From Candidatus Nanopelagicales bacterium (lineage in GTDB: Bacteria; Actinomycetota; Actinomycetes; S36-B12): a stretch of DNA of 44,340 nucleotides. Positions within the stretch are counted from its first letter, which is position 1. Every line of letters begins with the position of its first letter. Both the position numbers and the translations under genes were made by a program. The stretch lies in NCBI GenBank assembly GCA_021741645.1, contig JAIOXK010000009.1, forward strand, positions 1-44,340, read 5' to 3'. Below the pieces are notes generated by a model. The model had not been told where the DNA came from. It saw only the letters and a program-made list of their open reading frames with translations, and did no database searches. Positions 30,333-44,340 of this stretch are shown here, piece after piece.

Positions 30333-31316
30333 ATGCATGCACACGAGGACGGGACGCCAGCGCTGGACCACGTGATCGTCGTGCCCCGCAACGGCTACAT
30401 CAACCGGCTGCAGGCGTGGGCGTCCAGCGCCATACTCGCGGCCGAGCTACATGTTCCCCTCAGCGTGGCGTGGGAGCCCGAGCCGGTCGCGCCGGCAGCA
30501 CTGACGGATCTGTTCATCCCGGACCGTCCCGGTGTCTCCCTCATCTCGGCGGCGGCCCTGCGATCGTGCGTGGGCATGGACCACGATCTGCTGGACCGCT
30601 ACCTCTGGGTGGACGAGTCGCGTCGGCTGGTCGTCCTCGCCGGCCACGATCGCGGCGAGCAGGCGTTCATGCCCTCCCTAGCCGCGGCGTTGGGCCACCC
30701 ATGCGAGCCGACCACCCTCCTGATCATCGCGGGCGGGAAGTTCCACCTGCAGGGAACCACCGGCTTCGAGGAGCAGCGGCGGCTCTTCTACCGCCGGCTC
30801 CCCTGGAGCACTGCGGTCTCGTCCCGAACGCAGGCCGCCCTGGCGGGTCGCGACGACTTCATCGGACTGCACATCCGAGAGACGGATCGGGCCGTCACCG
30901 CGCCCACACGGCGGGAGGTTCGCGACGCGATCGTCACCCTTGCTGATCGCACGGGCGTGACATCGGTGTTCATTGCCGCTGACTCGGTATCGGCGCGCCT
31001 GCGCTGGCTCGAGGAGGTGGCAACCGTCGGCCTAGAAGGCTGGTCGGCGTCCGAACCGGAGCTGGACAGGTCATCCGCCCGGGCAGGCGTCGACGCGATG
31101 GTCGACTGGAGGCTCCTCGGCCTGTCCATGGGAGTGGTCTACTCCCGTGAGTCCTCCTTCGGCGAAGAGGCAGCGATCGCTGTCGATGCCGGCCGCACGT
31201 CGATTCCGCTCTCCGCAGGGCAGGCCCGTCAGCGGTCGCGGATGGCAGTGGCACTCGGGCGATCGGCCGTCGGCTACCCCCATCGACGGTGGGTTCAGGG
31301 GAGGAAGCCCTCCTGA
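30333..31316 (+). CDS. Fucosyltransferase-like protein (GT11/GT23-type HIRxxD motif)
   Basis: The 327-residue protein carries FIGLHIRETDRAV (about residues 178-190), matching the GDP-binding H-x-R motif of O-/alpha-1,6-fucosyltransferase superfamily members, with SVFIAADS and MVDWRLLGLSMGVVYSRESSF further on; the latter resembles the SxxS/SxF-type donor loop. The N-terminal VIVVPRNGYINRLQAWASS fits the first Rossmann unit. A GDP-6-deoxyhexose donor would agree with the GDP-mannose dehydratase genes at the right edge; that link is inferred. ATG 30333 is chosen over an in-frame 30246 start because of the -10 just upstream. The 3' end overlaps the next gene by 22 bases. Confidence 0.65.
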   Translation: MHAHEDGTPALDHVIVVPRNGYINRLQAWASSAILAAELHVPLSVAWEPEPVAPAALTDLFIPDRPGVSLISAAALRSCVGMDHDLLDRYLWVDESRRLVVLAGHDRGEQAFMPSLAAALGHPCEPTTLLIIAGGKFHLQGTTGFEEQRRLFYRRLPWSTAVSSRTQAALAGRDDFIGLHIRETDRAVTAPTRREVRDAIVTLADRTGVTSVFIAADSVSARLRWLEEVATVGLEGWSASEPELDRSSARAGVDAMVDWRLLGLSMGVVYSRESSFGEEAAIAVDAGRTSIPLSAGQARQRSRMAVALGRSAVGYPHRRWVQGRKPS

Positions 31317-33058
31317 ATCCCTGTTCCGCGCAACGAAACCAAACCATCGATCTGCGCGGTGCACAGGGGGTAGTTGAGCCAGCACTGGTCCGACTCGGTC
31401 GGGACTAGGACTGTCAGTCCGCTCGGCAGCGTCTGCTCCGCCACGGGAACATCGATAACGGGGGCGACCGCGTAAGGGATCTCGATTCCCAGGGTCCAGG
31501 TCCGCTGCTCGGTCAGTCCTGAGACGTCGAACCGAGTGACCGCGCTGAAGCCCACCACCATTGCGATGGGCAGGGCGACGCTCAGGACCGTGATCCACTG
31601 CCAGCGGCCCCGCACTGCAGGCGCACCGGCGCCGGGCAGCGTCAGCCGCCAGAGCGCCCACCCCGCCGGAATCGCGGCGAGTGTGAAGAGCGGTCCCCAG
31701 ATGAAGCGGTAGGACGGGGGCGTCGCCACCCACCAGAAGGCGAACGCCGTGGCACTGGGGACCATGACCAGCAGGAGGGGCCGGGTCCGAAGCGCCACCC
31801 GAGACCGGCTCGCCAGCACCATCAGCACGATCGCGGCGAGCGCAAGGGCGGCGAACTCGTAGGTCTCCCACTGACGCGGCAGACGCCCAAACCATGCTGC
31901 GACCCAGCCCCATCCCTCCGCCGCAGCCCACAGGTCCTCCAGATCGCGCGCCGCGCCCAGCGTCGGCACGCGGAACTGCGTGGGATCAGGAGCCCGCCAG
32001 GGGACGGCAAAGGCGAACACCGACAACGGGTACTGCAGCCAGCCACTGAGTATGACGTCACGCAGCGTCGTGACAATCGCCGCGAACACGGCCAGAGTCG
32101 AGGTCAGGACAAGCACCAGCCACACGCGTCTACCTGCTCGCCTCGTTCGCCACACGACCATGAGGACCACCATGACCGTGGTGGCGGCAAAGACCGCCAT
32201 CGTCGGGCGCAGCATCACCGCAAGCACCGCGGTGACAGCGGCGACCGCACCATCGGGCGCCGCGCGCGTCGGCGCCGTGACCGCGTCAGCGAGGTACGCC
32301 GCCGACACGATGCTCAACACAAGAACGGCCGAATCGGAGGTCGGGCTGGTGACCCAGTAATCAGAGAGCGCCACCATCGGGACGAAGGCCGATGCAGTCC
32401 CCACTGCAAGCACATACGAACCTGCACGCATACGGCCGCACCGCACCCGCAGACCGAGGTCCAGCGCCATCGCCGCGAGTAGCACTCCATTGAGGAGCCG
32501 GTAGCCCACGCCGTCCCATGGCCCATTGCCCAGGAACGCCGCGATCGGGAATTCGGCGTTCGCGTAGCCGAACGGGAAGTAGAGGTTTGCCAGGCCCGGG
32601 ATCGCGCGGTATTCGCCAGCATAGGCGATGGCACCCAGGTGGTACAGCCCTGTGTCGTAGTTGGTGACCGGCCCGAGCGCTGCTGCCGCTAGGTACAGGA
32701 CTGCAGCGGCGAGCGCGCCCACAATGATCCAGGTCGACGGCGCACGGCGACACCGCCTTGGAGAAAGGCTTCGGCCACCCGCCACCCGAACGGCCACGAC
32801 CCCGGCGAGGACGAGGGCCACAGCCACCACGACGACCACGACCGCTGCCAACCCGCTGCGCATCGGCAGGACGAGACTGACGCCGCTGATCAGGACGGCC
32901 AGTATTGCGATGCCCCACCACAGGGCGCCGCGCACGAGGCCCAGACCCCGCCGGCCAGGTCGCAGCATGAGAGCCGGTGCCATGCCGACTCCGATGGCTG
33001 CGCCCAGCATGACCGCCCAGCTCAGCAGCACGAGAGCCGTGCCCGACAGCAGGGTCAT
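31295..33058 (-). CDS. Polytopic GT-C-like membrane protein (LIC_10190/DUF8201-like)
   Basis: With ATG 33058 it has 587 residues and about twelve hydrophobic helices. The second loop carries NYDTGLYHLGAIAYAGEYR, then ANLYFPFGYANAEFPIAAF, the arrangement seen in LIC_10190-type membrane proteins of polysaccharide loci. The C-terminus is a short soluble segment with VLVPTESDQCWLNYPLCT. It may be a lipid-linked sugar glycosyltransferase or a polymerase. In-frame codons up to 33259 overlap the UDP-glucuronate decarboxylase gene and are not protein-like. It is last in the - strand operon begun at 36031. Confidence 0.68.
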   Translation of the reverse strand: MTLLSGTALVLLSWAVMLGAAIGVGMAPALMLRPGRRGLGLVRGALWWGIAILAVLISGVSLVLPMRSGLAAVVVVVVAVALVLAGVVAVRVAGGRSLSPRRCRRAPSTWIIVGALAAAVLYLAAAALGPVTNYDTGLYHLGAIAYAGEYRAIPGLANLYFPFGYANAEFPIAAFLGNGPWDGVGYRLLNGVLLAAMALDLGLRVRCGRMRAGSYVLAVGTASAFVPMVALSDYWVTSPTSDSAVLVLSIVSAAYLADAVTAPTRAAPDGAVAAVTAVLAVMLRPTMAVFAATTVMVVLMVVWRTRRAGRRVWLVLVLTSTLAVFAAIVTTLRDVILSGWLQYPLSVFAFAVPWRAPDPTQFRVPTLGAARDLEDLWAAAEGWGWVAAWFGRLPRQWETYEFAALALAAIVLMVLASRSRVALRTRPLLLVMVPSATAFAFWWVATPPSYRFIWGPLFTLAAIPAGWALWRLTLPGAGAPAVRGRWQWITVLSVALPIAMVVGFSAVTRFDVSGLTEQRTWTLGIEIPYAVAPVIDVPVAEQTLPSGLTVLVPTESDQCWLNYPLCTAQIDGLVSLRGTGIQEGFLP

Positions 33059-33068
33059 TGCGGGCGGA

Positions 33069-34012
<944 letters not shown>

Positions 34013-34016
<4 letters not shown>

Positions 34017-34939
34017 GATGCCCTCCTTCGACGCTGCTTACGGTAGCGATCCGCCTGGTCAAGCATGCCGCGCCACGTCGCCTGGAAGTGATGATGGCGA
34101 GTCCAGGCGTCCGCTCGACTGTCATGCTCCACAGGAACCTCCGCCATGGGCAGCCTGATGGACTCCACTGGCTGGAGCTCCTGCCGATCGACCGTGGTGT
34201 GGGTCGCCTGCTCGTTGAACCCGATGTTCTCAATCAGATTGACGTTGCTCGTGGCTGTCCACGCGTCCTCGGCCATCGCGGCGAGCACGAGCTGGCCGTC
34301 CCAGGTGTCGACCTCCTTGCGCGCGAGCAGCTCGAAGGTGCTCGTCCAGTACACGGTGCTGGGGATCGAATGCCCGACTCGCGACCAAAGCGTCTTCACG
34401 GGAAGCACCTCGCGCCAACCGACGATATCGAGGCGGTGCTTGGCCCATGACCTCCGCCACGTTGCCCAGCCCCAGATGTGCGGAACCTGGCTGAATCGAT
34501 ACGGAAGTTCCGGGTGCCTCTGGTGCTCTGCCGGCACAAAGTTGCATCCGCTGATCGCGAAGACCCGCTCGTCATTCTCGTATCGCTCCAGGAGCTCCTC
34601 GCAGTAGGGGAAGAAGGACGGATCCGGAATGATGTCGTCCTCAAGGATCACGCCTCTGTCCACGTTGTCGAAGAACCATGAGATCGCGGTGCTCACACCG
34701 AGGCCGCAGCCAAGGTTGGCGTTCTGAAAATTGGTCTGCACGTCGCAGGACCAGTCCACGGTGGTCGCGAGATCACGACACGCCTGGACACGCTCGAGCT
34801 CACCCCCCTTGTGGGGTCGAGGGCCGTCCACGGCGATGAACAACTGGGTCGGCTGCACCTCGCGCAATCGGTCCATGAGCACCGAAAGGTGGTCAGGGCG
34901 GTTGAACGCGATGACCAGAACGGGTTCAGCGAACGTCAC
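34013..34939 (-). CDS. Nucleotide-diphospho-sugar glycosyltransferase (GNT-I-like)
   Basis: The 308-residue GT-A protein starts with GTG inside the end of the DUF2304 gene. [39 protein letters not shown] and [15 protein letters not shown] (the EDD metal motif) match hemolytic-type/GNT-I-like bacterial glycosyltransferases, and [12 protein letters not shown] is a conserved C-terminal element of that group. It is a likely cytoplasmic enzyme of the same - strand operon. Sugar specificity is unknown. Confidence 0.8.
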
Positions 34940-35282
34940 GATCGTCTTTCAGGGTCTTGATCTCAGAGTCGAGCAGTGCGACCTCTTCCGCGAGCCGCCT
35001 GATGCGGGCTTCGTGCCGACTGAGCTCGTAGCTCAACTGCACCGCCACCAGAATCAACAGGACGATCGTGACGAAGAAGAGCAGGTTCGATGGCGTCTCG
35101 ATCCGGAGCACGTCGGTGACCCAGCGAAGCAGCCTCGGGAAGACCGCCAGCACCAGCGCGGCGCCACTGACGGCCAGCCACAGGACCGCGTATTTCTCCT
35201 GCAGCGACCCGCGACGCAGCATCCAGAACACGAACACGAAGGTGAGGAGCGAGGCGACGACTCCAAGGATCTGCGCGGTCAT
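34926..35282 (-). CDS. DUF2304 small membrane protein
   Basis: The 118-residue protein has three hydrophobic stretches, the RRGSLQEKYAVLWL signature of DUF2304 near residue 24, and a charged C-terminal tail likely to form a coiled coil (SRHEARIRRLAEEVALLDSE). DUF2304 genes sit next to DPM1-type GT2 genes in many glycan loci and may help or anchor that enzyme; the same pairing occurs here with an ATGA overlap. Confidence 0.88.
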   Translation of the reverse strand: MTAQILGVVASLLTFVFVFWMLRRGSLQEKYAVLWLAVSGAALVLAVFPRLLRWVTDVLRIETPSNLLFFVTIVLLILVAVQLSYELSRHEARIRRLAEEVALLDSEIKTLKDDRDVR

Positions 35283-36031
35283 GCGGCATCACTCCTGGGC
35301 GTGGACTTTCCCTTGAGTCCGGTGGCAAGGATGGCCAGACTCGCTCGACCAAGGTAGAGCGCAGACCACAGGGCGTTCTTGCTGGGGCGTCCGTGTTGGC
35401 GGAAGTACATCGTGACCGGGACCTCATGAATGACCAGTCCGCGCCTGATCGCGATCGCCAGTGAGCCGACGGTATCGCCGAGGTACTCCGCCGGGTAGTC
35501 CGTCGCGAAGAGATCAATGGCTCGCGGGCCCGCGGAGCGAAAGCCACTCGTGGGATCCGAGATCGGGCCGCGATTCATTCGGCTGAGGGACTTGCTGAGG
35601 AGCACCATCGCCCATCGCCGGGGACCGCCAACGAAGTACATCGAGTCCGGATGGAATCGGGTGCCGACCACGACGTCCGCCTCCGCGAGGCCGTCGAGAA
35701 CCCGATCGAGATCCGCCGGATCATGCTGGCCATCGGCGTCCACTTGCACCAGTGCCTCATAGTCGTTGCGCTTGGCGTAGAGGAAGGCCGTGCGCATGGC
35801 ACCCCCAACACCGACATTGAAGGGGAGCGAGACAACCGTGGCACCCGCTGCCTGCGCCAAGGCAGCGGTGTCGTCCGTGGACCCGTCGTTCACGACCAAG
35901 ATGTGCGCGTCCGGACGGTGCTCTCGGACAGTGGCGATGACCGCGGCGATTGAACCCCGCTCGTTCCACGCGGGTATCGCGACGAGAGTACGCGCGGGCC
36001 GACGGCCGCTCTCGCGAGTCTCCTCAGTCAC
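35279..36031 (-). CDS. GT2 polyprenyl-phosphate glycosyltransferase (DPM1-like)
   Basis: The 250-residue protein reads VAIPAWNERGSIAAVIATV, ILVVNDGSTDDTA, NVGVGGAMRTAF, LVQVDADGQHDPADL (DxD with QHDP) and SDPTSGFRS, the set typical of dolichol/undecaprenyl-phosphate glycosyltransferases. It would load a sugar on the lipid carrier for the GT-C membrane proteins nearby. No membrane anchor is present; DUF2304 downstream may provide it. GTG 36031 lies 6 bases behind TAGACT (36043-36038), so this five-gene operon probably has a leaderless first message. Confidence 0.9.
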   Translation of the reverse strand: MTEETRESGRRPARTLVAIPAWNERGSIAAVIATVREHRPDAHILVVNDGSTDDTAALAQAAGATVVSLPFNVGVGGAMRTAFLYAKRNDYEALVQVDADGQHDPADLDRVLDGLAEADVVVGTRFHPDSMYFVGGPRRWAMVLLSKSLSRMNRGPISDPTSGFRSAGPRAIDLFATDYPAEYLGDTVGSLAIAIRRGLVIHEVPVTMYFRQHGRPSKNALWSALYLGRASLAILATGLKGKSTPRSDAA

Positions 36032-36037
36032 CTCGAC

Positions 36038-36043
36038 AGTCTA
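36038..36043 (-). promoter_or_regulatory. Leaderless -10 box TAGACT before GT2 operon
   Basis: TAGACT ends 6 bases before GTG 36031, matching the spacing seen at several other starts in this window. Confidence 0.45.
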
Positions 36044-36111
36044 CTGACAGCCACGGCGGCGATCCGGGACGTCAAGTAGGGTCACGCGCACCCCCTCTCA
36101 GAGGAGAATCC

Positions 36112-36786
36112 ATGAGACATCTGTCTCGCGGCCTTGTCGCGCTCGCGATTGCCGCCATGGCAGCCATCGGCGCCGTCCCCGCACAGGCCGTGCCTGGCAC
36201 CACGACCGAGCTCCTCGTGCCGAACCTCGTCCAATCGGGGGTTCCGACAACACTTCTGGCCGACGTGACGCAGGATGCCTCGCTCGGCGCTCCCACTGGG
36301 ACCGTCACCTTCTGGACCGGCTACGGCACCTCACTGGGCACCGCGTCTCTCGTGGCCACGGGAAACGGCTCGGCGCGCGCGTCACTGGCCTGGACACCTC
36401 CACCTGAGCCCACCGTCCCCTTGATTGCCCGCTACACCCCCACGGGCGCCACTGCCGTGGCCGCCACCAGTGCCTACGCTCGACCGGGCATCACCAGCGC
36501 GCCCGTGCCGGTGGCGCTTCGCTTCACCCAGACGCTTCGTGAGGGGCCGATCACGCTCGAGGCCGTGCTCGGTAACGGCTTCGGTGCCGGTTCGGTCACC
36601 TTCTTCGTGGATGGCCGTGGCTGGACGGGCTCGGTGCCCACGGTCGATGGTGTGGCCTCGCTGGTGTGGGACGCGACACCAGGCGTGCACACGATCCTCG
36701 TGCAGTACAGCAGCAGTGCGAAGAACACAGCCGGATTCTCGGTTTCGTCGGGCTCCTCAACGCAGTCGGTGGAGGTACTGCCCTAA
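36112..36786 (+). CDS. Secreted protein with two Ig-like (Big_3_5-type) repeats
   Basis: The 224-residue protein has a Sec signal peptide (hydrophobic core ALAIAAMAAIGA, probable cleavage after VPAQA, residue 26) and then two tandem beta-sandwich units of about 90 residues with the marks of bacterial Ig-like domain 3: TTTELLV, PTGTVTFWTGYGTSLGTASLV and later AGSVTFFVDGRGW. There is no LPXTG, lipobox or membrane anchor, so it is predicted to be released or held by the wall polymer. GAGGAG lies 5 bases before ATG 36112, with TAGGGT (36077-36082) as likely -10. It is a lone + gene amid glycosyltransferases. Confidence 0.8.
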   Translation: MRHLSRGLVALAIAAMAAIGAVPAQAVPGTTTELLVPNLVQSGVPTTLLADVTQDASLGAPTGTVTFWTGYGTSLGTASLVATGNGSARASLAWTPPPEPTVPLIARYTPTGATAVAATSAYARPGITSAPVPVALRFTQTLREGPITLEAVLGNGFGAGSVTFFVDGRGWTGSVPTVDGVASLVWDATPGVHTILVQYSSSAKNTAGFSVSSGSSTQSVEVLP

Positions 36787-36794
36787 CGGCTGAG

Positions 36795-37937
36795 TCAGTC
36801 GGCGAAGGCCTCAACCACGCCTTTGGCAAATGCTGACCAGGTGGGCACGGATTCGGGATCGAGTTCTGCACGCAGCTGAGACAGCGCCTCCGGCGCCGAC
36901 CAACGCTGGAATGCCTGCGCCATCCCTTCATGGCTCATGGCATCCATGCGCTCGGCGCCCCGGCCCTGCATGAGCTCAGCCGCCGGCTGCATCCCGTCGT
37001 AGAGGACGGGCGTGCCAAGTCGGATGGCCTCGAGCACCGGGATGCCGTAACCCTCGACACCGATGGACAGGAAGGCCGAGGATCGGTGCATCAGATCCTC
37101 CACCTCGGCATCACTGGCACCCTCGATCCAGCGCACGCCGCCCTTCTCGACCTCGTCTCGAATCGCTCGGTTGATCCCCTCGTCAGAGTGGGAGTGGCCC
37201 CCGACGAAGAGGAGCTCGGCATCGAGGTTCCCCGCCTCGCGGGCGGCACGGAACGCCTGCGCGATCTCCACCGGTCGCTTGCGTGCCTCAAGGGTGCCCA
37301 AGCGCATGAACAGCGGGTGATCGGGCGGCTCTGGCGCACGGATCGGCACGTGGTCGCCGCCCGGATGGGTAACGGAGATCGGCAGCGCCGGATCTCTCCT
37401 GAGGTCTCGCATGATGGCGTCCTTGGCGGCAGCGCTGATGCAGACGACCGAGCGTGACGTCGCGAGCAGTCGGAAGTACTCACTCGCCCATGGCGCCACG
37501 CCGGGGCGGAATCGATAGTTCGCGGGCTCGGACATCGGGAGGGTGTCGTAGCCGATCATGACCGTCGGCACCCGCTCGGCGAAGTCCTCGAACCTGCGCA
37601 GCACGGTGGGCAGGTAGGACACTTCACCGAGCAGCCAGGCGTCGAAGACCTCGTTGAGTTCGTCGTCAGTCAGCGTTGCGGGATCGAACTCGGCGATCCT
37701 GGCGAGGACGGGCTCGCGCAGGTCGTGCTCGCCGCCGCGCGGCAGGAAGGGAGTCGTGAGGAGGTCTGCCGCCTGCTCTCGGGTCAGCAGGGCGTGGCCG
37801 CCCGCCCAAGGCACCACAAACTCGGCCGTCATCTCGCCAGCGGGCCACTCCTTCGCCAGGTACTGCAGCACTCGCTGAATCCCCGACCCGTGCGGATCGG
37901 TGACGAACTGCTCGAGGTCGATGCCGACGTGCGTCAT
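36795..37937 (-). CDS. Glycosyltransferase family 4
   Basis: This 380-residue GT-B enzyme has GIDLEQFVTDPHGSGIQRVLQYL at the N-terminus, VMIGYDTLPM, VVCISAAAKDAIMRDL, LFMRLGTLEARKRPVEIAQAF, AFLSIGVEGYGIPVLEAIRLGTPVLY (EX7E-type donor site) and a C-terminal helix. The start ATG overlaps the AAA ATPase stop as ATGA, so its translation is coupled to the ATPase and it shares that gene's promoter. Confidence 0.88.
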   Translation of the reverse strand: MTHVGIDLEQFVTDPHGSGIQRVLQYLAKEWPAGEMTAEFVVPWAGGHALLTREQAADLLTTPFLPRGGEHDLREPVLARIAEFDPATLTDDELNEVFDAWLLGEVSYLPTVLRRFEDFAERVPTVMIGYDTLPMSEPANYRFRPGVAPWASEYFRLLATSRSVVCISAAAKDAIMRDLRRDPALPISVTHPGGDHVPIRAPEPPDHPLFMRLGTLEARKRPVEIAQAFRAAREAGNLDAELLFVGGHSHSDEGINRAIRDEVEKGGVRWIEGASDAEVEDLMHRSSAFLSIGVEGYGIPVLEAIRLGTPVLYDGMQPAAELMQGRGAERMDAMSHEGMAQAFQRWSAPEALSQLRAELDPESVPTWSAFAKGVVEAFAD

Positions 37938-39163
37938 TGCGCACCCCTTGGGGGCTTCCTGGTTGATCTTGAGGTCGGGACAGGAAGGTCGGGCATGGTG
38001 CGAATCATGAACTGATCGAAATGAGGAACGGTGAAGGCCGCGTAGCCATGCTCAGGGGTGTACAGCAGGCCCATGCCAATGAGTTCGGCGCGCGTCGGCG
38101 CCACCTGAGGTGACGTGCGCCCCAGTACACGTGCGACATCTGCAGCCTTTTGAGGTTCACTGCCGAGGCTGGCCATTGCTCGCAAGTAGGCCTTCTGCGC
38201 ACCCGTTGTCCGGTCGAGCCGGACCCGGAAGAAGGACGAGTCAAGTTTGGACTCATAGATGTCGAGGGCTTGCTCAACGTCATCACGTGTCACAGGGGAG
38301 GCGTCTGTACTTCGCCAGATTGCGTAGCCGAGCTCCTGAATGAAGTACGGGTATCCGCCGGTGATCTCCCGGGCCCGAGCGAGGGCCTTGGCACTGAAAT
38401 CGACCCCCTCGGCCCGAGCGGGCGCGGCCAGCGCCTCATCGGCATCGTCGCCGTCTAGGACGCCGATCACCGGAAACCGCAGTAGCCGTTCAGCGTAGGA
38501 CTTCGCGTCACCAGCCAGTTCGGCGATCTGCGGCAGGCCCGCGCCGACCATGGTTACCGGCAACTTGCGCTGCACCAAGCGATGAAGGGCCCCAATGACC
38601 GCTTCAAGTTGCGCCGAGCTGAGGAACTGGACCTCGTCGAGCAGCAGAACGACTCCACTGTCGACGCTTGCAGCTGCCTCACCTACGGCAATCAGCAGGT
38701 CAGTGAGATCGAGGCTGAGGTCGCCGTGGTCTGCGTAGCCCTCCGCATGCTCGCTCTGCGTCGAGACCGAGATGGAGCCGTCCGGCTGGAGTCCCAGGGT
38801 GAATGACTGCAGGACTGCAGACGCGAACCGGAGCCGCTCTCCCCATCGTGCTCGAGGACTCAGTTCGAAGAGCGCAGAACGCAGGCCTGCCGCCAGTTCA
38901 CGTCGGAACCCGGCGTCGTCATGCTTGCTGACCTCGAGTTCGACGACGACCCACCCGGCGCCGAGCGCGAGGGAGCGGAACTTCCCGAGCACGACTGTCT
39001 TGCCGACGCCACGAAGTCCGGTGATCACCATCGACTGATCGGTGCGGCCCGACCGCAGACGCCTGAGGAGGATGTCGAACGAATCGAACAGGTCGTCACG
39101 ACCGGTGATGACCTCTGGTTCGGCCCCTGCATTGGGGGTGTAGGGGTTGCGGACGGGGTCCAT
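37934..39163 (-). CDS. AAA (archaeal-ATPase-like/AAA_16) ATPase with C-terminal winged helix
   Basis: This 409-residue protein has VITGRDDLFDSFDILLRRL, Walker A GLRGVGKT (49-56), Walker B LLLDE (173-177), a VGAGLPQI region and a GGYPYFIQELGY lid segment, all typical of STAND-like AAA_16 ATPases. About residues 325-390 (AYLRAMASLGSEPQKAADVARVLG through HGYAAFTVPHFDQFM) look like a winged helix, which suggests DNA or protein binding. No nuclease or effector domain is seen. It probably starts from a leaderless message (TAAGAT 6 bases before the ATG) whose -10 overlaps the nested palindrome upstream. The function is unknown; a regulator or defence role is possible. Confidence 0.85.
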   Translation of the reverse strand: MDPVRNPYTPNAGAEPEVITGRDDLFDSFDILLRRLRSGRTDQSMVITGLRGVGKTVVLGKFRSLALGAGWVVVELEVSKHDDAGFRRELAAGLRSALFELSPRARWGERLRFASAVLQSFTLGLQPDGSISVSTQSEHAEGYADHGDLSLDLTDLLIAVGEAAASVDSGVVLLLDEVQFLSSAQLEAVIGALHRLVQRKLPVTMVGAGLPQIAELAGDAKSYAERLLRFPVIGVLDGDDADEALAAPARAEGVDFSAKALARAREITGGYPYFIQELGYAIWRSTDASPVTRDDVEQALDIYESKLDSSFFRVRLDRTTGAQKAYLRAMASLGSEPQKAADVARVLGRTSPQVAPTRAELIGMGLLYTPEHGYAAFTVPHFDQFMIRTMPDLPVPTSRSTRKPPRGAQ

Positions 39164-39175
39164 GACTTGATCTTA
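39164..39175 (-). promoter_or_regulatory. -10 box TAAGAT of ATPase operon
   Basis: TAAGAT (39175-39170) with a 6-base spacer to ATG 39163. Its first three bases are the last three of the palindrome arm, so a protein bound there would block RNA polymerase. Confidence 0.5.
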
Positions 39176-39227
39176 GGGGTGTTAGGTGACTTTAGCGATT
39201 CTTCCTAAAGTTAGCTAACACCCCTAA
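39173..39227. repeat. Nested inverted repeat upstream of AAA ATPase (candidate operator)
   Basis: The outer arms TTAGGGGTGTTAG (39173-39185) and CTAACACCCCTAA (39215-39227) are perfect 13-bp complements. Inside, ACTTTAG (39189-39195) and CTAAAGT (39205-39211) are a second perfect 7-bp pair with a 9-base loop. GTTAGCTAAC (39210-39219) is also a perfect palindrome. The segment is AT-richer than its surroundings. It fills the gap between the 939-residue GT gene and the ATPase. There is no U-tract after it on -, which argues against a standard terminator. Confidence 0.88.
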
Positions 39228-39232
39228 ACTCG

Positions 39233-42052
39233 TTATCGAGTCTGACCTTGGAGCACTCCGAGGAGTTGCTCGGCGTAGCGCTGAGGCGACTTCTGCTCCA
39301 GATACTCACGGCGCATCGCCTCGCGCTCCTCGAGTGATCGCGGATGCGCGAGGGCCGTCTCGATGGCCTCGGCCACCATCACGGGGCTGACATCGTCGGG
39401 GAGTCGGTCGATGAAGTCCGGGGTGTCCACATCGATCGCCAGGCCCCGATTGGCGATGGCTGGCGTGCCATATGCGGCCATGTCACTCAAGGGGCCGCTG
39501 ACGCCCAGAAGCGGGCTGACGCGCAGCTGGATGCCGAGGTCGACGCCGAGCAGGTAGTCGCGGAAGGTGCTCTCGGGGGCGTAGCCGGTGATGGTGAAGC
39601 CGGTGAGACCAGCCTTCTCGGCCCGCTCGGTGAGTTCAGCTTCGAGGGCCGGTGATGCCGACCCGACGAGATGCAGGTGCACCTTGCGGCCCCACTGCTG
39701 CAGCCAGGCTGCGGATTCCACGACGGTGTCGGTGAGCTTGGTGCGGGTGTCGATGTAGCCGAAGGACGCCAGGTGGATGACGGAGTCGTCCCAGATGCCC
39801 AGGTTGCGCCGCGCCTGGGCGCGCATCGGCTCGGTGAGCCGCTCCACGCTGGGCCGGCGGTAGTTGGCGAAGGGAAGCACCCCGACGGGGCGGTGAGTCT
39901 GGGCGCTGATGGCCGGTGACGCGCAGGGCGAGTGGGTGATGAGCAGGCTGGCCCGCCGGGCGATCTCCCAGAAGCCGGCGTTCTCGAGCAGGCGCATGTC
40001 GTTGACCTGCTCGTCGAGATCCGGGTCAAGGGTGCGTCGGCCACTGCCGCGCAGCATCAACTCCTGCGCGCCCCCGGCACCGCGCAGTGCCATGTAGTAC
40101 TCGATCATCCGCGTGTCATGGCTCAGGGCCACGGTGTCGATTCGATCGAGCAGATCCAGGTGCGGCAGATGGAAGTGGCTGTTGCCCAGGACGGTGAGGA
40201 ATACGTCATGGTCGTCGGCATGGGCCGGCGCGTCGCCCACAGGCCTGCTGGGGATCTCCTCGTCGACTCTCGCGTCGGAGGTCGTGTAAACGGTGACGTC
40301 CGCGATCTCAGCCAGCGCGCTGATCGTCGCGACCGAGTAGTCCGCGACGCCGGACTTCTGCGGTGACCAGGGGGTCGCCACTCCCACGCGCAGTCTGCGT
40401 TCCCCGACATCGATGGTCGCCGGGGGAGGAACTGGAAGATCGTTGGTACTGATGGACTTTGCATGCTTGGTGACGGACTCGGTGACGACCTGCTCCAAGG
40501 GCAGATGCTCGTGCTGGGCGAGCCGTTGCCACTGCTGCTGGGCGGTGTCAGCCTTGTCGCGGTGCTTGCGCACCGCGCGGTCGATGTCGGTCGGCGACGT
40601 CGGGTCGACAAGGAAGGGGCCGGTGCCGATGAGCTCCCGGTGCGAGGGGATGTCAGAGGCGACGATCGGCGCGCCGGCGAGGGCCGCCTCGATGACGGGA
40701 AGGGAGAGCCCTTCATCGAAGGAGGGCACGACCACCAGACTCGCGCTGGCCAGCAGGTCAGCCATCTCCTCGTCAGGTATGCGGTCGAGAGTCGTCGCCT
40801 CACCCGGGCGCATCATCGCTGCGATGGACCAGTGATGGACCCGGACACCCTGCCCAGCCATGCCGAGGACGACGACGTCGCGGGTGGCATCCGCCGAGGT
40901 CGCAGCACCGATACCGGCCAGGCCGCCGAAGGTGTTCTTGCGGGCATCGTCACCGGTCATCAGCACGATCGGGCCGGTGCTGCGATGGGTCGCCGCTGGT
41001 GGCTGGGCATCCTCGGGCAGCACAGCACCGGGCCACGCCACCGTGGCATCGATCTCCCGGCCCAGGATGCGTTCGGTCTCGTCCTTCACCATGTGCGAGA
41101 TGCAGATGAACTCGTCATAGCAGCGCAGGGCATCGAGACCTGCTGCGTACTCCACTCGAGCCGCAACGTGCGGCACGTAGACATCAGGCAGGTGCATCGG
41201 GATGTAGTCGAAGACGATGGCGGCCTTGTGCGCACCGGACGACAGGACGGGGATGAGCGGCTCGGGTGAGGCCGTCATCGGCGAGGGCTCGAGCAGGTAG
41301 GCGTACTGCTCGGTGATGCGGGTGATCTGCCTGCAGGCACCTGAGATCTGCTCAGGTAGATCGGGCAGTGCGCGATCGACGAGGAGGTCGACTCTTTCGT
41401 CGCCGCCAGCTTCTCGCAGCGCGATCACGGCCGCGCTGGCGAAACGGCCGATGCCTCGGGTGCCGAAGGCCGCAGACTGGAGGCTGCGGGCGTCGATGAG
41501 GATCCGGTCACCAGTGGGGGCTGTGCTGGGGCCCTGCTCGCGCGCGCGGGCCAGTCCGCTCAGGGCGAGTCTCGCGGCGAGGGCCCTTCTTGCGCGTCCG
41601 AGTTCGTCCCCCTGGCCGTCCATGCGGCGGTCGAGCATGGCGTCGTCGTCGTAGGTGCCCGAGGCCAGCCACGCAGTGACGTCTGCGGCTGCCCGATCGT
41701 CGAGAGGCTCCCAGCCCAGCCCCGCGGAGGGGACGTCGGGCAGGCCATCGGGGTTGATCCAGCCGATGGGCCTCGGCTCCGCCGCTCCGAGCAGTGGGGC
41801 GGGGGTGAGGTGGCCCATGTTGATCGTGACGTGCTGCAGGTGGCGGCGCCGGGTCAGGCGGCGCGACAGGGGTCCGGGCAGGTGCTGGAGGGCCTGCTTG
41901 GCCCGGAATCGGGCTACGAGGGCGGCCTTGCGGGGCAGCCCGATGGGCTCGGGCTCTGGCTCACGGGCCGCATCACGGGCGGCGTCACGGCGCTGGCGAG
42001 CCTGGTCGAGGACGGCTGACCTCGCCGTCGCACCCGCTGCCTCGTCCTGCAC
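39233..42052 (-). CDS. Two-domain GT4 glycosyltransferase (939 residues)
   Basis: This GTG-start protein joins two GT-B modules. After a charged N-terminal region (about 180 residues), the first reads ILIDARSLQSAAFGTRGIGRF, VFDYIPMHLPDVYV, FICISHMVKDETERIL, and LVVPSFDEGLSLPVIEAALAGAPIVASDIPSHRE. The second begins LRVGVATPWSPQKSGVADYS and ends VSPLLGVSGPLSDMAAYGTPAI. Tandem GT4 enzymes often add two sugars or polymerise a repeat; the second module lacks a clear E-x7-E, since SGPLSDMA stands there. TAGCCT lies 6 bases before GTG 42052, so the transcript is probably leaderless. Confidence 0.88.
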   Translation of the reverse strand: MQDEAAGATARSAVLDQARQRRDAARDAAREPEPEPIGLPRKAALVARFRAKQALQHLPGPLSRRLTRRRHLQHVTINMGHLTPAPLLGAAEPRPIGWINPDGLPDVPSAGLGWEPLDDRAAADVTAWLASGTYDDDAMLDRRMDGQGDELGRARRALAARLALSGLARAREQGPSTAPTGDRILIDARSLQSAAFGTRGIGRFASAAVIALREAGGDERVDLLVDRALPDLPEQISGACRQITRITEQYAYLLEPSPMTASPEPLIPVLSSGAHKAAIVFDYIPMHLPDVYVPHVAARVEYAAGLDALRCYDEFICISHMVKDETERILGREIDATVAWPGAVLPEDAQPPAATHRSTGPIVLMTGDDARKNTFGGLAGIGAATSADATRDVVVLGMAGQGVRVHHWSIAAMMRPGEATTLDRIPDEEMADLLASASLVVVPSFDEGLSLPVIEAALAGAPIVASDIPSHRELIGTGPFLVDPTSPTDIDRAVRKHRDKADTAQQQWQRLAQHEHLPLEQVVTESVTKHAKSISTNDLPVPPPATIDVGERRLRVGVATPWSPQKSGVADYSVATISALAEIADVTVYTTSDARVDEEIPSRPVGDAPAHADDHDVFLTVLGNSHFHLPHLDLLDRIDTVALSHDTRMIEYYMALRGAGGAQELMLRGSGRRTLDPDLDEQVNDMRLLENAGFWEIARRASLLITHSPCASPAISAQTHRPVGVLPFANYRRPSVERLTEPMRAQARRNLGIWDDSVIHLASFGYIDTRTKLTDTVVESAAWLQQWGRKVHLHLVGSASPALEAELTERAEKAGLTGFTITGYAPESTFRDYLLGVDLGIQLRVSPLLGVSGPLSDMAAYGTPAIANRGLAIDVDTPDFIDRLPDDVSPVMVAEAIETALAHPRSLEEREAMRREYLEQKSPQRYAEQLLGVLQGQTR

Positions 42053-42058
42053 CGTCCA

Positions 42059-42064
42059 AGGCTA
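42059..42064 (-). promoter_or_regulatory. Leaderless -10 box TAGCCT before double GT4 gene
   Basis: TAGCCT (42064-42059) ends 6 bases before GTG 42052, the same geometry as at the other leaderless-type starts. Confidence 0.4.
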
Positions 42065-42125
42065 GGGGCGAGCCCCATGTGACCAGAGGTGCGCCTCGCG
42101 ACAAGATTGGCCTTTAGACCCTCAG

Positions 42126-42136
42126 TATTCTATTCT
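42126..42136 (+). promoter_or_regulatory. Promoter of HigBA relic
   Basis: Two overlapping TATTCT boxes (42126-42131, 42131-42136) lie just before ATG 42140; TTGGCC (42107-42112) is 18 bases upstream of the second. Confidence 0.45.
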
Positions 42137-42139
42137 GGG

Positions 42140-42371
42140 ATGAAGCAATCATGGAATGTGGCGATCACTAGCGAGGTGTCAGCCTGGCTCACCAGCCTGC
42201 CGGACGACGCCTACGAGCGGGTCATGGCAGTGCGCTGGCGAACCTGAAGGCGTTGCGGTACTGCTCGTCGCGGGGGATGAACGCGGGCAGTGGTCTCGCT
42301 GGTACACGGAGGCCATTCCCGAGGCAGAGAGACGATTCACAGCATGGATGGAGCGGGAGGAACGGCCATGA
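42140..42371 (+). pseudogene. HigB/RelE-type toxin with internal deletion and frame change
   Basis: From ATG 42140 the first frame gives WNVAITSEVSAWLTSLPDDAYERVMA, a typical N-terminus of HigB-like phage-derived toxins, then stops within a few codons. A different + frame resumes as GVAVLLVAGDERGQWSRWYTEAIPEAERRF and on to a TGA at 42369-42371, the C-terminus of the same family. Together about 70 of the usual 110-120 residues are present; the middle, which carries the GRP/KELR RNA-contact region, is missing. The toxin is therefore almost certainly dead. The TGA overlaps the antitoxin ATG (ATGA), as in intact higBA pairs. Confidence 0.8.
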
Positions 42372-42682
42372 AGCAGGAATTCACGACCCTCGACGATGTG
42401 TTGGCGCAGCGCCCGATCGATCCGGAGGTGCTGGCCGAGGAAGTATCTGCCGTCGAGGCGCAGATGTCCGGTTACCTGCTCCGTCAACTCCGCAAGGGCC
42501 AGGGCCTCAGTCAGGAGCAGCTCGCGGAGCGAATGGGGGTGTCGCAGCGGCGAGTCTCGGCGATCGAGCGCGGCAAGGTCGACAGGTCCGAGATCGCGAC
42601 GATCCGTGCCTACGTGACGGCGCTCGGCGGTGAACTCGAGCTCGTGGCCCGGATTGACGGAACGACCACGCAGATCGCCTGA
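42368..42682 (+). CDS. higA: XRE-family antitoxin (HigA-like)
   Basis: The 104-residue protein has an N-terminal dimerisation-type segment (EFTTLDDVLAQRPIDPEVLA) and a helix-turn-helix (LLRQLRKGQGLSQEQLAERMGVSQRRVSAIERG). It is full length, ending ELELVARIDG, so it can still bind DNA although its toxin partner is broken. ATG 42368 is taken from the ATGA overlap with the toxin relic; the frame is open to 42290 upstream but that part is antitoxin-unlike. It likely represses its own promoter and possibly others. Confidence 0.85.
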   Translation: MKQEFTTLDDVLAQRPIDPEVLAEEVSAVEAQMSGYLLRQLRKGQGLSQEQLAERMGVSQRRVSAIERGKVDRSEIATIRAYVTALGGELELVARIDGTTTQIA

Positions 42683-42683
42683 G

Positions 42684-43655
42684 TCAGGGGATCTGCCAGA
42701 GGGCTTCCGGGTCGTCCAGCAGCGCGAGGTCATGGCCGACCATGATCGCGGCCATCGAGTCGAAGTCGACGGTGTGCCGCCAGCCCAGTTCGAGGTAGGC
42801 GGCCCGGCTGTCGCCGACGAGCAGGTTCGTGTCAACGCGCCGTGAGTTGTCGGCCGTGCTGATCACGAGGTCGTGCCAGTCGTCGATACCCGCCGCCGCA
42901 AACGCCTTGTCGATGAAGAAGCTCAACCGATGCGAGATGCCGGTGGCGAGTACGTAGTCGTGCGGCACGTCTGCGCGCACCATGAGCTGCATCGCCCGCA
43001 CGTAGTCAGGCGCCCAGCCCCAGTCGCGTGCTGTCTCGATGTCGCCGAGCTCGATGACGCTCTGCAGGCCCTTGGCGATCCGGGCGACGCCCATCGTCAC
43101 CTTGCGGGTCACGAAGTTCTCACCGCGCAGTGGCGACTCGTGGTTGTAGAGGATGCCGGCGACAGCGTGCGCCCCGCGATCGCGAGCAGCGTCGACCAGA
43201 TCCATGGCGTCGCGCTTGGAGACCGCGTACGGGCTCTTCGGCTCACGCTCCATCCGCTCGGTCTGCGGAGCACGGTCAACGCCTTCGAAGATCGATGCTG
43301 ACGACGCCTGGAACATCCGGCAGTCCGGCAGTGTTTCGACTGCCTCGAGGATGGCCGTGACCGCATCGACGTTGACGACCCGGACCTCGTCCTCGTGGCT
43401 CCATGACTCACCAGGAGCGGTGAACCCGCCGAGGTTGTAGACCTCGTGCGGGCTCGCATCCGTGACGGTCGACCTCAAGCCCTTCGTGTCGGCCAGATCC
43501 TGCTCGACGACCGTGGTGCCAGGGGCGTAGCGAAGAAGGTGATCAGTGTTCGTCCCCGGCTTGACCAATGCCGTGACGTCAGCGCCCTCACGCCGCAGCA
43601 GGGTGCACAGAATCGTGCCGTCCTGACCGGCGGCTCCGGTGACGAGGGCGCGCAC
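42684..43655 (-). CDS. GDP-mannose 4,6-dehydratase-family SDR with altered active site (possible reductase or epimerase)
   Basis: The 323-residue protein starts with GTG 43655, with GGAAGG just upstream. It is clearly a Gmd paralogue: ALVTGAAGQDGTIL, VYNLGGFTAPGESW, LYNHESPLRGENFVTRKVT, DWGWAPDYVRAMQLM. The Gmd active-site run QASTSEMFG is replaced by QASSASIFE, so the Thr-x-Glu pair used for dehydration is Ser-x-Ser, while the Tyr-xxx-Lys (SPYAVSK) is kept. Loss of the catalytic Glu suggests it no longer dehydrates; reduction or epimerisation of the GDP-4-keto-6-deoxymannose from the neighbouring Gmd is plausible, as for RMD-type enzymes. It is 7 bases downstream of gmd. Confidence 0.8.
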   Translation of the reverse strand: MRALVTGAAGQDGTILCTLLRREGADVTALVKPGTNTDHLLRYAPGTTVVEQDLADTKGLRSTVTDASPHEVYNLGGFTAPGESWSHEDEVRVVNVDAVTAILEAVETLPDCRMFQASSASIFEGVDRAPQTERMEREPKSPYAVSKRDAMDLVDAARDRGAHAVAGILYNHESPLRGENFVTRKVTMGVARIAKGLQSVIELGDIETARDWGWAPDYVRAMQLMVRADVPHDYVLATGISHRLSFFIDKAFAAAGIDDWHDLVISTADNSRRVDTNLLVGDSRAAYLELGWRHTVDFDSMAAIMVGHDLALLDDPEALWQIP

Positions 43656-43662
43656 AGCCTTC

Positions 43663-44340
43663 CTAGAACTGGCCTTCAGGAGCGCCTTCGAGGCGGGCGA
43701 TGTCCGCGTCGACCATGATCTTGGCGAGCTCGGGCGGCAGGACCTTGGCCTCCCAGCCGAGCTTGCGCTTGGCCTTGCCGGCATCGCCGATCAGCTCGTC
43801 GACCTCGGTCGGGCGCAGGAACTTCGGGTCGAACTTGACGTAGTCCTCCCACTCCAGGCCCACGTGCTCGAAGCACAGCTGCAGGAAATCACGGATCGTG
43901 TAGGCGGTGCCCGTCGCGAGGACGAAGTCCTCGGGCTCGTCGGCCTGCAGCATGCGCCACATGCCGTCGGTGTACTCCGGCGCGTAGCCCCAGTCGCGGA
44001 TCGCGTCGAGGTTGCCCATCCACACCTCGGTCTGGTGTCCCTTGAAGATGTTCGCCACGGCGAGGGAGATCTTGCGCGTCACGAAGGTCTCGCCGCGGCG
44101 CGGGGACTCGTGGTTGAACAGCTGACCATTGACGGCGAACATGTCGTAGGCCTCGCGGTAGTTCTTGGTGATCCAGTAGGAGTACACCTTCGCCGCGCCA
44201 TACGGCGAGCGCGGGTAGAACTCGGTCTCCTCGTTCTGCGGCGGCGGGGAAGCACCGAACATCTCGCTGGTCGACGCCTGGTAGAAGCGAATGCTCGTAT
44301 CCGTGGTGCGGATCGCCTCGAGCATGTTCAGGGTGCTGAT
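43663..44340 (-). CDS. gmd: GDP-mannose 4,6-dehydratase, 5' part outside window
   Basis: The frame is open to the window edge (225 residues visible). It shows [20 protein letters not shown] with the catalytic Thr and Glu, [12 protein letters not shown] with the Tyr-xxx-Lys pair, [38 protein letters not shown] and [17 protein letters not shown]. It makes GDP-4-keto-6-deoxymannose from GDP-mannose with NADP, the precursor of GDP-fucose, GDP-rhamnose or related sugars. The N-terminal cofactor motif lies beyond base 44340. Confidence 0.95.

Follow-up and report, generated by a model that had tools for sequence, protein, structure and literature searches.

A six-half-site dyad array as a candidate self-operator of a predicted leaderless AAA ATPase gene

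We propose that a palindrome in front of an AAA_16 ATPase gene in an actinobacterial contig (the window, the whole stretch of 44,340 nucleotides analysed here) is a DNA operator through which the ATPase would control its own leaderless gene, a reading to which we assign a probability of roughly three in four. An autoregulatory operator was one of two possibilities raised in the original prediction, and comparison with relatives supports it through the position of the element, its conservation and its restriction to the ATPase gene. On this reading, an anonymous "ATP-binding protein" would become a self-regulating switch that can be tested and whose recognition code can be read, each subfamily or paralogue matching its own winged helix to its own array. 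Through the operator one could also approach what the ATPase senses, because the signal would show itself as de-repression of the ATPase promoter.

The palindrome is an unstranded inverted repeat with 23-nt arms (39173-39195 and 39205-39227; 91% complementary, 21/23 paired) around a 9-nt spacer. It occupies the gap upstream of the ATPase, whose ORF starts at 39163 on the minus strand, and has the nested anatomy first noticed by inspection: within the 23-nt arms (39173-39227), a perfect 13-bp outer repeat (TTAGGGGTGTTAG / CTAACACCCCTAA) is followed by a 3-nt step containing two mismatches and a perfect 7-bp inner repeat (ACTTTAG / CTAAAGT), and a third short palindrome (GTTAGCTAAC, 39210-39219) sits in one arm. 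None of 200 mononucleotide shuffles (70 bp) matched this symmetry. When the palindrome was folded as RNA, z was -5.6 and none of 200 dinucleotide shuffles was equally stable. The sequence occurs once in its own 2.39-Mb assembly, and we therefore rejected a repeated genomic element; a plain nucleotide search found the palindrome DNA in 0/58 relatives, that is, in one of 59 genomes, the window's own. The palindrome is better described as an array of six half-sites, a candidate operator on the minus strand at 39172..39228: TTTA (S1, 39225-39228), GTTA (S2, 39216-39219), TTTA (S3, 39206-39209), TAAA (S4, 39191-39194), TAAC (S5, 39181-39184), and TAAG (S6, 39172-39175). The 13-bp perfection is a peculiarity of the window copy.

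To look at the array in relatives, we scanned the collection genome_contigs with the protein and obtained 52 homologous loci, nearly all from scattered Actinomycetota. We stacked 49 of these together with the window, aligned on the start codon without gaps and excluding two partial genes (L068, L072) and one broken frame (L070); a smaller set, A2, additionally omits near duplicates (L022, L053), loci with an unclear start codon (L041, L048), and a divergent array (L060). The 50 upstream regions contain six short conserved blocks at fixed positions, T-rich at about -65, -55, and -45 and A-rich at about -30, -20, and -11, with little conservation beyond -66. Spacing is 9-10 bp within each arm and 15 bp across the axis. 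Counting a half-site as at least three of its four bases, we find all six in 32 of 50 sequences and at least five in 43 (for this count L022 and L053 were removed and two plasmid copies added), whereas the 50 controls, taken 90 bp farther from the gene, never exceed two. Covariation extends to mirrored positions beyond the core half-sites (572 of 972 cells complementary versus 512 +- 11.5; 0/2000 permutations), in a test on the 36 of 50 sequences that share the same dyad-centre parity; centring for this test drew on symmetry at distances 11-19. In 37/52 loci the dyad axis falls at -37 to -38, and 27/52 loci have individually significant dyads. These sequences are kin and not independent, and shared ancestry inflates some of the counts. 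The original prediction had made its survival depend on a palindrome being present upstream of ATPase homologues; nearly all 49 usable actinobacterial relatives keep a dyad array equally far from the start codon, and the idea survived.

At two loci, 10-bp direct repeats replace a clean dyad before the ATPase: L061 (3910-4000; GTAAAACGCA), where they stand in place of one arm, and L147 (G107:C78, about 660-760; ACTATAAAG). These repeats give the impression that further half-sites can be added in phase with the helix.

We then used a sequence model of 47 arrays (R1) to search whole genomes. Among the 38 genomes behind the loci, 37 have an R1 match, always at an ATPase start (coordinates compared by hand), and one genome with two ATPase copies (G489) has two sites. 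Only weak matches (E of 0.026 and above) were found in G502, at a direct-repeat version of the array, and G496, the genome of L060, has no R1 match. In a further eight genomes, R1 matched in seven; the eighth (G409) contains only a C-terminal fragment of the ATPase. Across 82 genomes of the window's family, R1 is found at E <= 0.01 only in G000, G010 (two places), G013, and G087, and every one of these matches directly precedes an ATPase homologue; a match in G070 (E of 0.24) is at chance level. Four of the eight family genomes with any homologue thus have an R1 match, and the other four (G002, G005, G107, G108), whose homologues are more distant or broken, have none. For the 296 genomes sampled across the phylum, all five with a homologue of at least 59% identity have a match, three of these outside the training set, and four other genomes have matches at E of 0.004-0.009, about the number expected by chance (n = 296). 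At about 57% identity and below, R1 matches are lost (G200, G150). Training sequences match by construction (38 loci were covered in one genome run and eight in another), and what carries weight is the lack of other sites together with the held-out cases G338, G363, G384, G087, and the second copy in G010. Across these searches, the array accompanies the ATPase gene and does not recur at other places in the genome. We had also considered an iron-box-like operator, given the TTAGGTTAG-like half-sites; this reading was dropped because no gene but that of the ATPase has the array.

The array coincides with a promoter of leaderless type. A -10 element of the form TANNNT (TAAGAT, 39170..39175, minus strand) lies six nt before the ATG, and the arm covers its first three bases (TAAGAT reads from 39175 to 39170), in agreement with the overlap initially predicted. 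TANNNT is found at exactly -12..-7 in 31/52 loci and within 1 nt of that position in 40/52, against a background of 4 in 5928 upstream positions; Shine-Dalgarno-like words are present at two of the 52 loci and absent at the window ATPase. In M. tuberculosis, the centre of TANNNT is reported to lie 7-12 bp ahead of the transcription start (PMC3898074). Based on this spacing and on the missing Shine-Dalgarno sequence, transcription of the ATPase gene is predicted to start at the A of the ATG at 39163. The array covers the -10 and the -35 region, and its last half-site is the -10 box; the array would therefore lie outside the ATPase mRNA, and this points to a DNA operator and not to an RNA switch. 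Simple scans found neither a sigma-70-type consensus pair nor an intrinsic terminator or terminator-like site with a T run. Two plasmid homologues, from Protochlamydia (L079) and Pantoea (L080), have no obvious leader and carry A/T dyads before the ATG, and leaderless starts may be common to Gram-negative members as well.

As a mechanism, we suggest that the six half-sites of about four bases, spaced about 10 bp apart on either side of the axis near -37, would be bound by the winged helices of an ATPase oligomer, six of which would sit roughly on one face of the DNA helix. Binding would block RNA polymerase, because the outermost half-site is the -10 box, and the gene would thereby repress itself until a changed nucleotide or ligand state of the ATPase releases the array. 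We infer each of these elements, namely the ATPase itself as the binder, the oligomer, repression as the effect, and release by a signal; the effect may instead be activation. Array and ORF would be carried between sites and species as one unit. With promoter and brake both supplied by the unit itself, it could land anywhere without local control, and this would fit the varied neighbourhoods described below.

Different subfamilies of the ATPase have different arrays. More distant homologues, whether plasmid-borne or chromosomal, frequently carry a dyad of different sequence at the corresponding position (examples are L117 with 19-nt arms, L126 with 18-nt arms, and L082 with TGTCTGTCA/TGACAGACA), and significant dyads are present in 12 of 39 distant homologues versus 12 of 191 control stretches from the same loci. 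A second subfamily is marked by the winged-helix region GRKPxSLSPARDxLLKKGLIYS. For this group we built a model (R3) from six upstream stretches with no coding bases, having set aside a version (R2) that contained nine coding bases. R3 matches in 57 of 393 genomes of the class. We fetched 30 R3 loci, 25 of them from outside the training genomes and five from within: in 29 the match stops 1-6 bp short of an ATPase start, the encoded homologues being 37-42% identical to the window ATPase, and the single miss lies 1.26 kb from an ATPase gene. Many R3 sites are long palindromes of their own sequence (L218 has 18-bp perfect arms), significant dyads occur in 12/29 versus 7/87 controls, and the -10 (CATAGAGT) lies in the right arm. 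Paralogues within one genome can also differ in their dyads, as in G118 (L142 and L139) and G384 (L141 and L138). Our reading of these sequences is that each winged helix has probably co-evolved with its own operator. Homologues that do not fit the pattern are those of G200 and G150, L060, and L131-L137; the last of these, the most distant, have no dyad before start codons that are themselves uncertain.

The protein itself (409 aa, 37934..39163, minus strand) is an AAA_16 (STAND/Orc1-like) ATPase with a C-terminal winged helix. It contains a Walker A motif (GLRGVGKT), a Walker B motif (DE, residues 176-177), and an AAA_16 match at 7e-16. Residues G49-T56 are invariant except at V57-type positions, and D176, E177, and P272, the last of which we take to be part of a GxP-type lid motif, are invariant in 34/34 members. 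An AlphaFold2 model from 34 sequences (pLDDT 79.5, pTM 0.71) predicts a helix-helix-helix-strand arrangement for residues 321-377. Folding the C-terminal domain by itself yielded a poor model (pLDDT 43.6), and so the assignment of the winged helix named in the original prediction is based on the full-length model together with structure alignments. These match the model to SSO1545, PABY2304, Orc/Cdc6, RuvB, and MalT, and the P-loop, the DE Walker B, the GxP-type lid, and the winged helix after the ATPase are all features of STAND or archaeal (SSO1545-like) ATPases. By profile, 31 of 34 members match ATPase_2 (PF01637) at E up to 0.01 (best 5.2e-07), the window protein itself having no such match, and weak matches among members include ATPase_2, nSTAND6, TniB, BrxC/D, and ORC-CDC6-like families. 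No relative of the window ATPase was found by sequence in the PDB, no named NCBIfam family scored above its cut-off, and no PADLOC-DB family matched at E up to 0.01. A known anti-phage defence protein was rejected given the lack of a PADLOC match.

Among known systems, the archaeal STAND-type proteins SSO1545 and PABY2304 (PDB 2fna, 2qen) are the best structural matches (VIA Z 13.1 and 13.7, about 295 aligned residues) and, like the window ATPase, have an AAA+ core followed by a winged helix. However, there is no sequence match in the PDB, and the large rmsd (about 13 A) means that the match does not fix the domain arrangement. We know of no such operator array for either protein. Orc1/Cdc6 and other AAA+ DNA binders such as DnaA are self-controlled, and Orc1/Cdc6 resembles the present case in its AAA+ plus winged-helix build and in having a repeat array next to its gene. 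Profile similarity to this group is weak (TIGR02928; PF24389 in 10/34), the initiator cut-off being missed by a wide margin (TIGR02928, 25.3 versus 181.3 bits), and, unlike Orc1/Cdc6, the window ATPase is bacterial, patchy in distribution, and dispensable, with an array that overlaps a promoter. The mycobacterial signal-transduction ATPase IniR and MalT are likewise STAND-type and both control promoters. IniR is reported to be an 818-aa protein with a MalT-like sensor domain that acts on iniBAC, and its ATPase domain was also matched to SSO1545 (PMC5760070). In contrast, the window protein is shorter (409 aa), and the array occurs at no gene but its own. Lastly, TnsC/TniB, SspC, and BREX proteins belong to the same broad Orc/CDC6 ATPase clade, in mobile contexts, and weak TniB and BrxC/D Pfam matches were found here. 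The ATPases of this clade that act in transposition and conflict are reported to lie in multigene systems (PMC10853773), whereas we find no recurring partner gene beside the ATPase, no PADLOC match, and no conserved right end such as a Tn7-like (TnsC/TniB) element would have. By analogy, a transposition or conflict role might be considered as a lead only. Among titles and the openings of abstracts, we recognised no description of this ATPase family or its operator.

In the window, the unit of array and ORF (about 1.3 kb, 37934..39228, minus strand) lies between two glycosyltransferase genes on the same strand. The upstream gene (939 aa, 39233..42052) ends with a TAA (39233-39235) 4 nt before the first half-site, and the start of the downstream GT4 gene (380 aa, 36795..37937) overlaps the ATPase stop as ATGA. 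Around the unit, positions 31000-43800 are occupied by clustered glycosyltransferase and nucleotide-sugar genes (GT4, GT2, GDP-mannose dehydratase type). The overlap in the proposed ATPase-GT4 operon is thus real in the window; neighbours vary among loci, however, and in three relatives of the same genus (L173 in G007, L174 in G012, L176 in G003) the two glycosyltransferase genes are adjacent with the whole unit missing. A functional operon with the GT4 gene was therefore rejected, the link to glycosyltransferases being accidental and not conserved. A fourth relative (L172, G008) has other sequence between these genes. Fixed neighbours are found only within Curtobacterium and a few close pairs, in a survey whose crude gene calling missed the ATPase itself in L030, L034, L050, and L066.

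Empty sites are found in other genera as well. At seven Curtobacterium loci, the aligned flanks lie 15-76 bp apart, and ten Microbacterium loci have both flanks without the ATPase; in 7/10 of these the match ends exactly at the upstream stop codon, beside the array. Such edges are not base-exact evidence of transposition, because coding DNA is conserved better than spacers. Where the ATPase lies elsewhere (G538, G621, G684), only array and ORF are common with the query. Loss by deletion also occurs, since one Microbacterium empty site (L182, G570) keeps a decayed array-like relic (CTTACAAGCTTCAGATGACTTCATTGGTTCTGGATAAAACCGAG). From these comparisons, array and ORF appear to behave as a self-contained, context-free unit of about 1.3 kb that is gained and lost. 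At another locus (L185, G587), a 615-bp insert that by eye looks like a Phd/RelE-type toxin-antitoxin pair lies where Microbacterium galbinum (L050) has the ATPase unit. Beside the ATPase stop in L037 (5235-5303) is an element of about 55-70 bp that is recurrent across Curtobacterium chromosomes and looks like a repeated terminator hairpin.

The same observations bear on other explanations of the palindrome. A host factor might bind the array in place of the ATPase, for instance a general regulator or Lsr2, a silencer of AT-rich DNA, and the window's subfamily does have AT-rich arrays in genomes that are GC-rich, which is what silencing of foreign DNA would predict. The fixed spacing, the dyad, and the covariation are hard to reconcile with such a factor, as are the absence of a second site in most genomes and an array that varies with the ATPase subfamily (including GC-rich arms) and between paralogues of one genome, and we consider this explanation unlikely. 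An RNA stem-loop, acting as a switch in the ATPase leader or as a terminator of the upstream glycosyltransferase gene, strikes us as highly improbable, even though the RNA fold is very stable and read-through from upstream would transcribe the palindrome. The leaderless architecture is conserved in the family, the array is found behind genes of either orientation, L061 and L147 retain half-sites but lack a good stem, other subfamilies have dyads of different sequence at this DNA position, and there is no terminator-like site with a T run. We accordingly find no support for the RNA hairpin switch of the original prediction: 6 nt separate the -10 box from the ATG, there is no Shine-Dalgarno sequence, and no Rfam family reaches its gathering score.

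It is also conceivable that the array is chiefly a working site of the ATPase, similar to an origin or an element end (compare Orc1/Cdc6 or TnsC), with promoter control secondary. An Orc/Cdc6-like AAA+ plus winged helix, the 10-bp iterons of L061 and L147, and the gain and loss of array and ORF as a unit would all agree with this. We nevertheless judge it decidedly unlikely: no nuclease, recombinase, or transposase recurs alongside, no right end is recognisable beside the stop codon, and for most members of the window's subfamily the -10 box marks the end of the array, while deletion leaving an array relic (L182) or recombination between flanks would also give such presence and absence. Very unlikely, too, is a minimal single-gene mobile element, in which binding of the array by the ATPase would serve self-silencing and would also mark or drive the spread of the element via borrowed host enzymes; the 1.3-kb unit would then be a kind of selfish gene without a nuclease or transposase of its own. 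Self-control of the ATPase gene through the array remains the explanation that we prefer.

The ATPase is held by 35 of the 296 sampled phylum genomes, and relatives are present on 115 of 72,556 plasmid records, including those of Pseudomonadota and Chlamydiota. A phage collection gave one match, an unannotated 5.9-kb contig, and the collection viral_contigs one locus (L085), whose upstream 110 bp equal those of L049. A contig labelled Stenotrophomonas maltophilia (L044, JACEFY010000074.1) carries an actinobacterial-type ATPase with its array and is possibly a contaminant.
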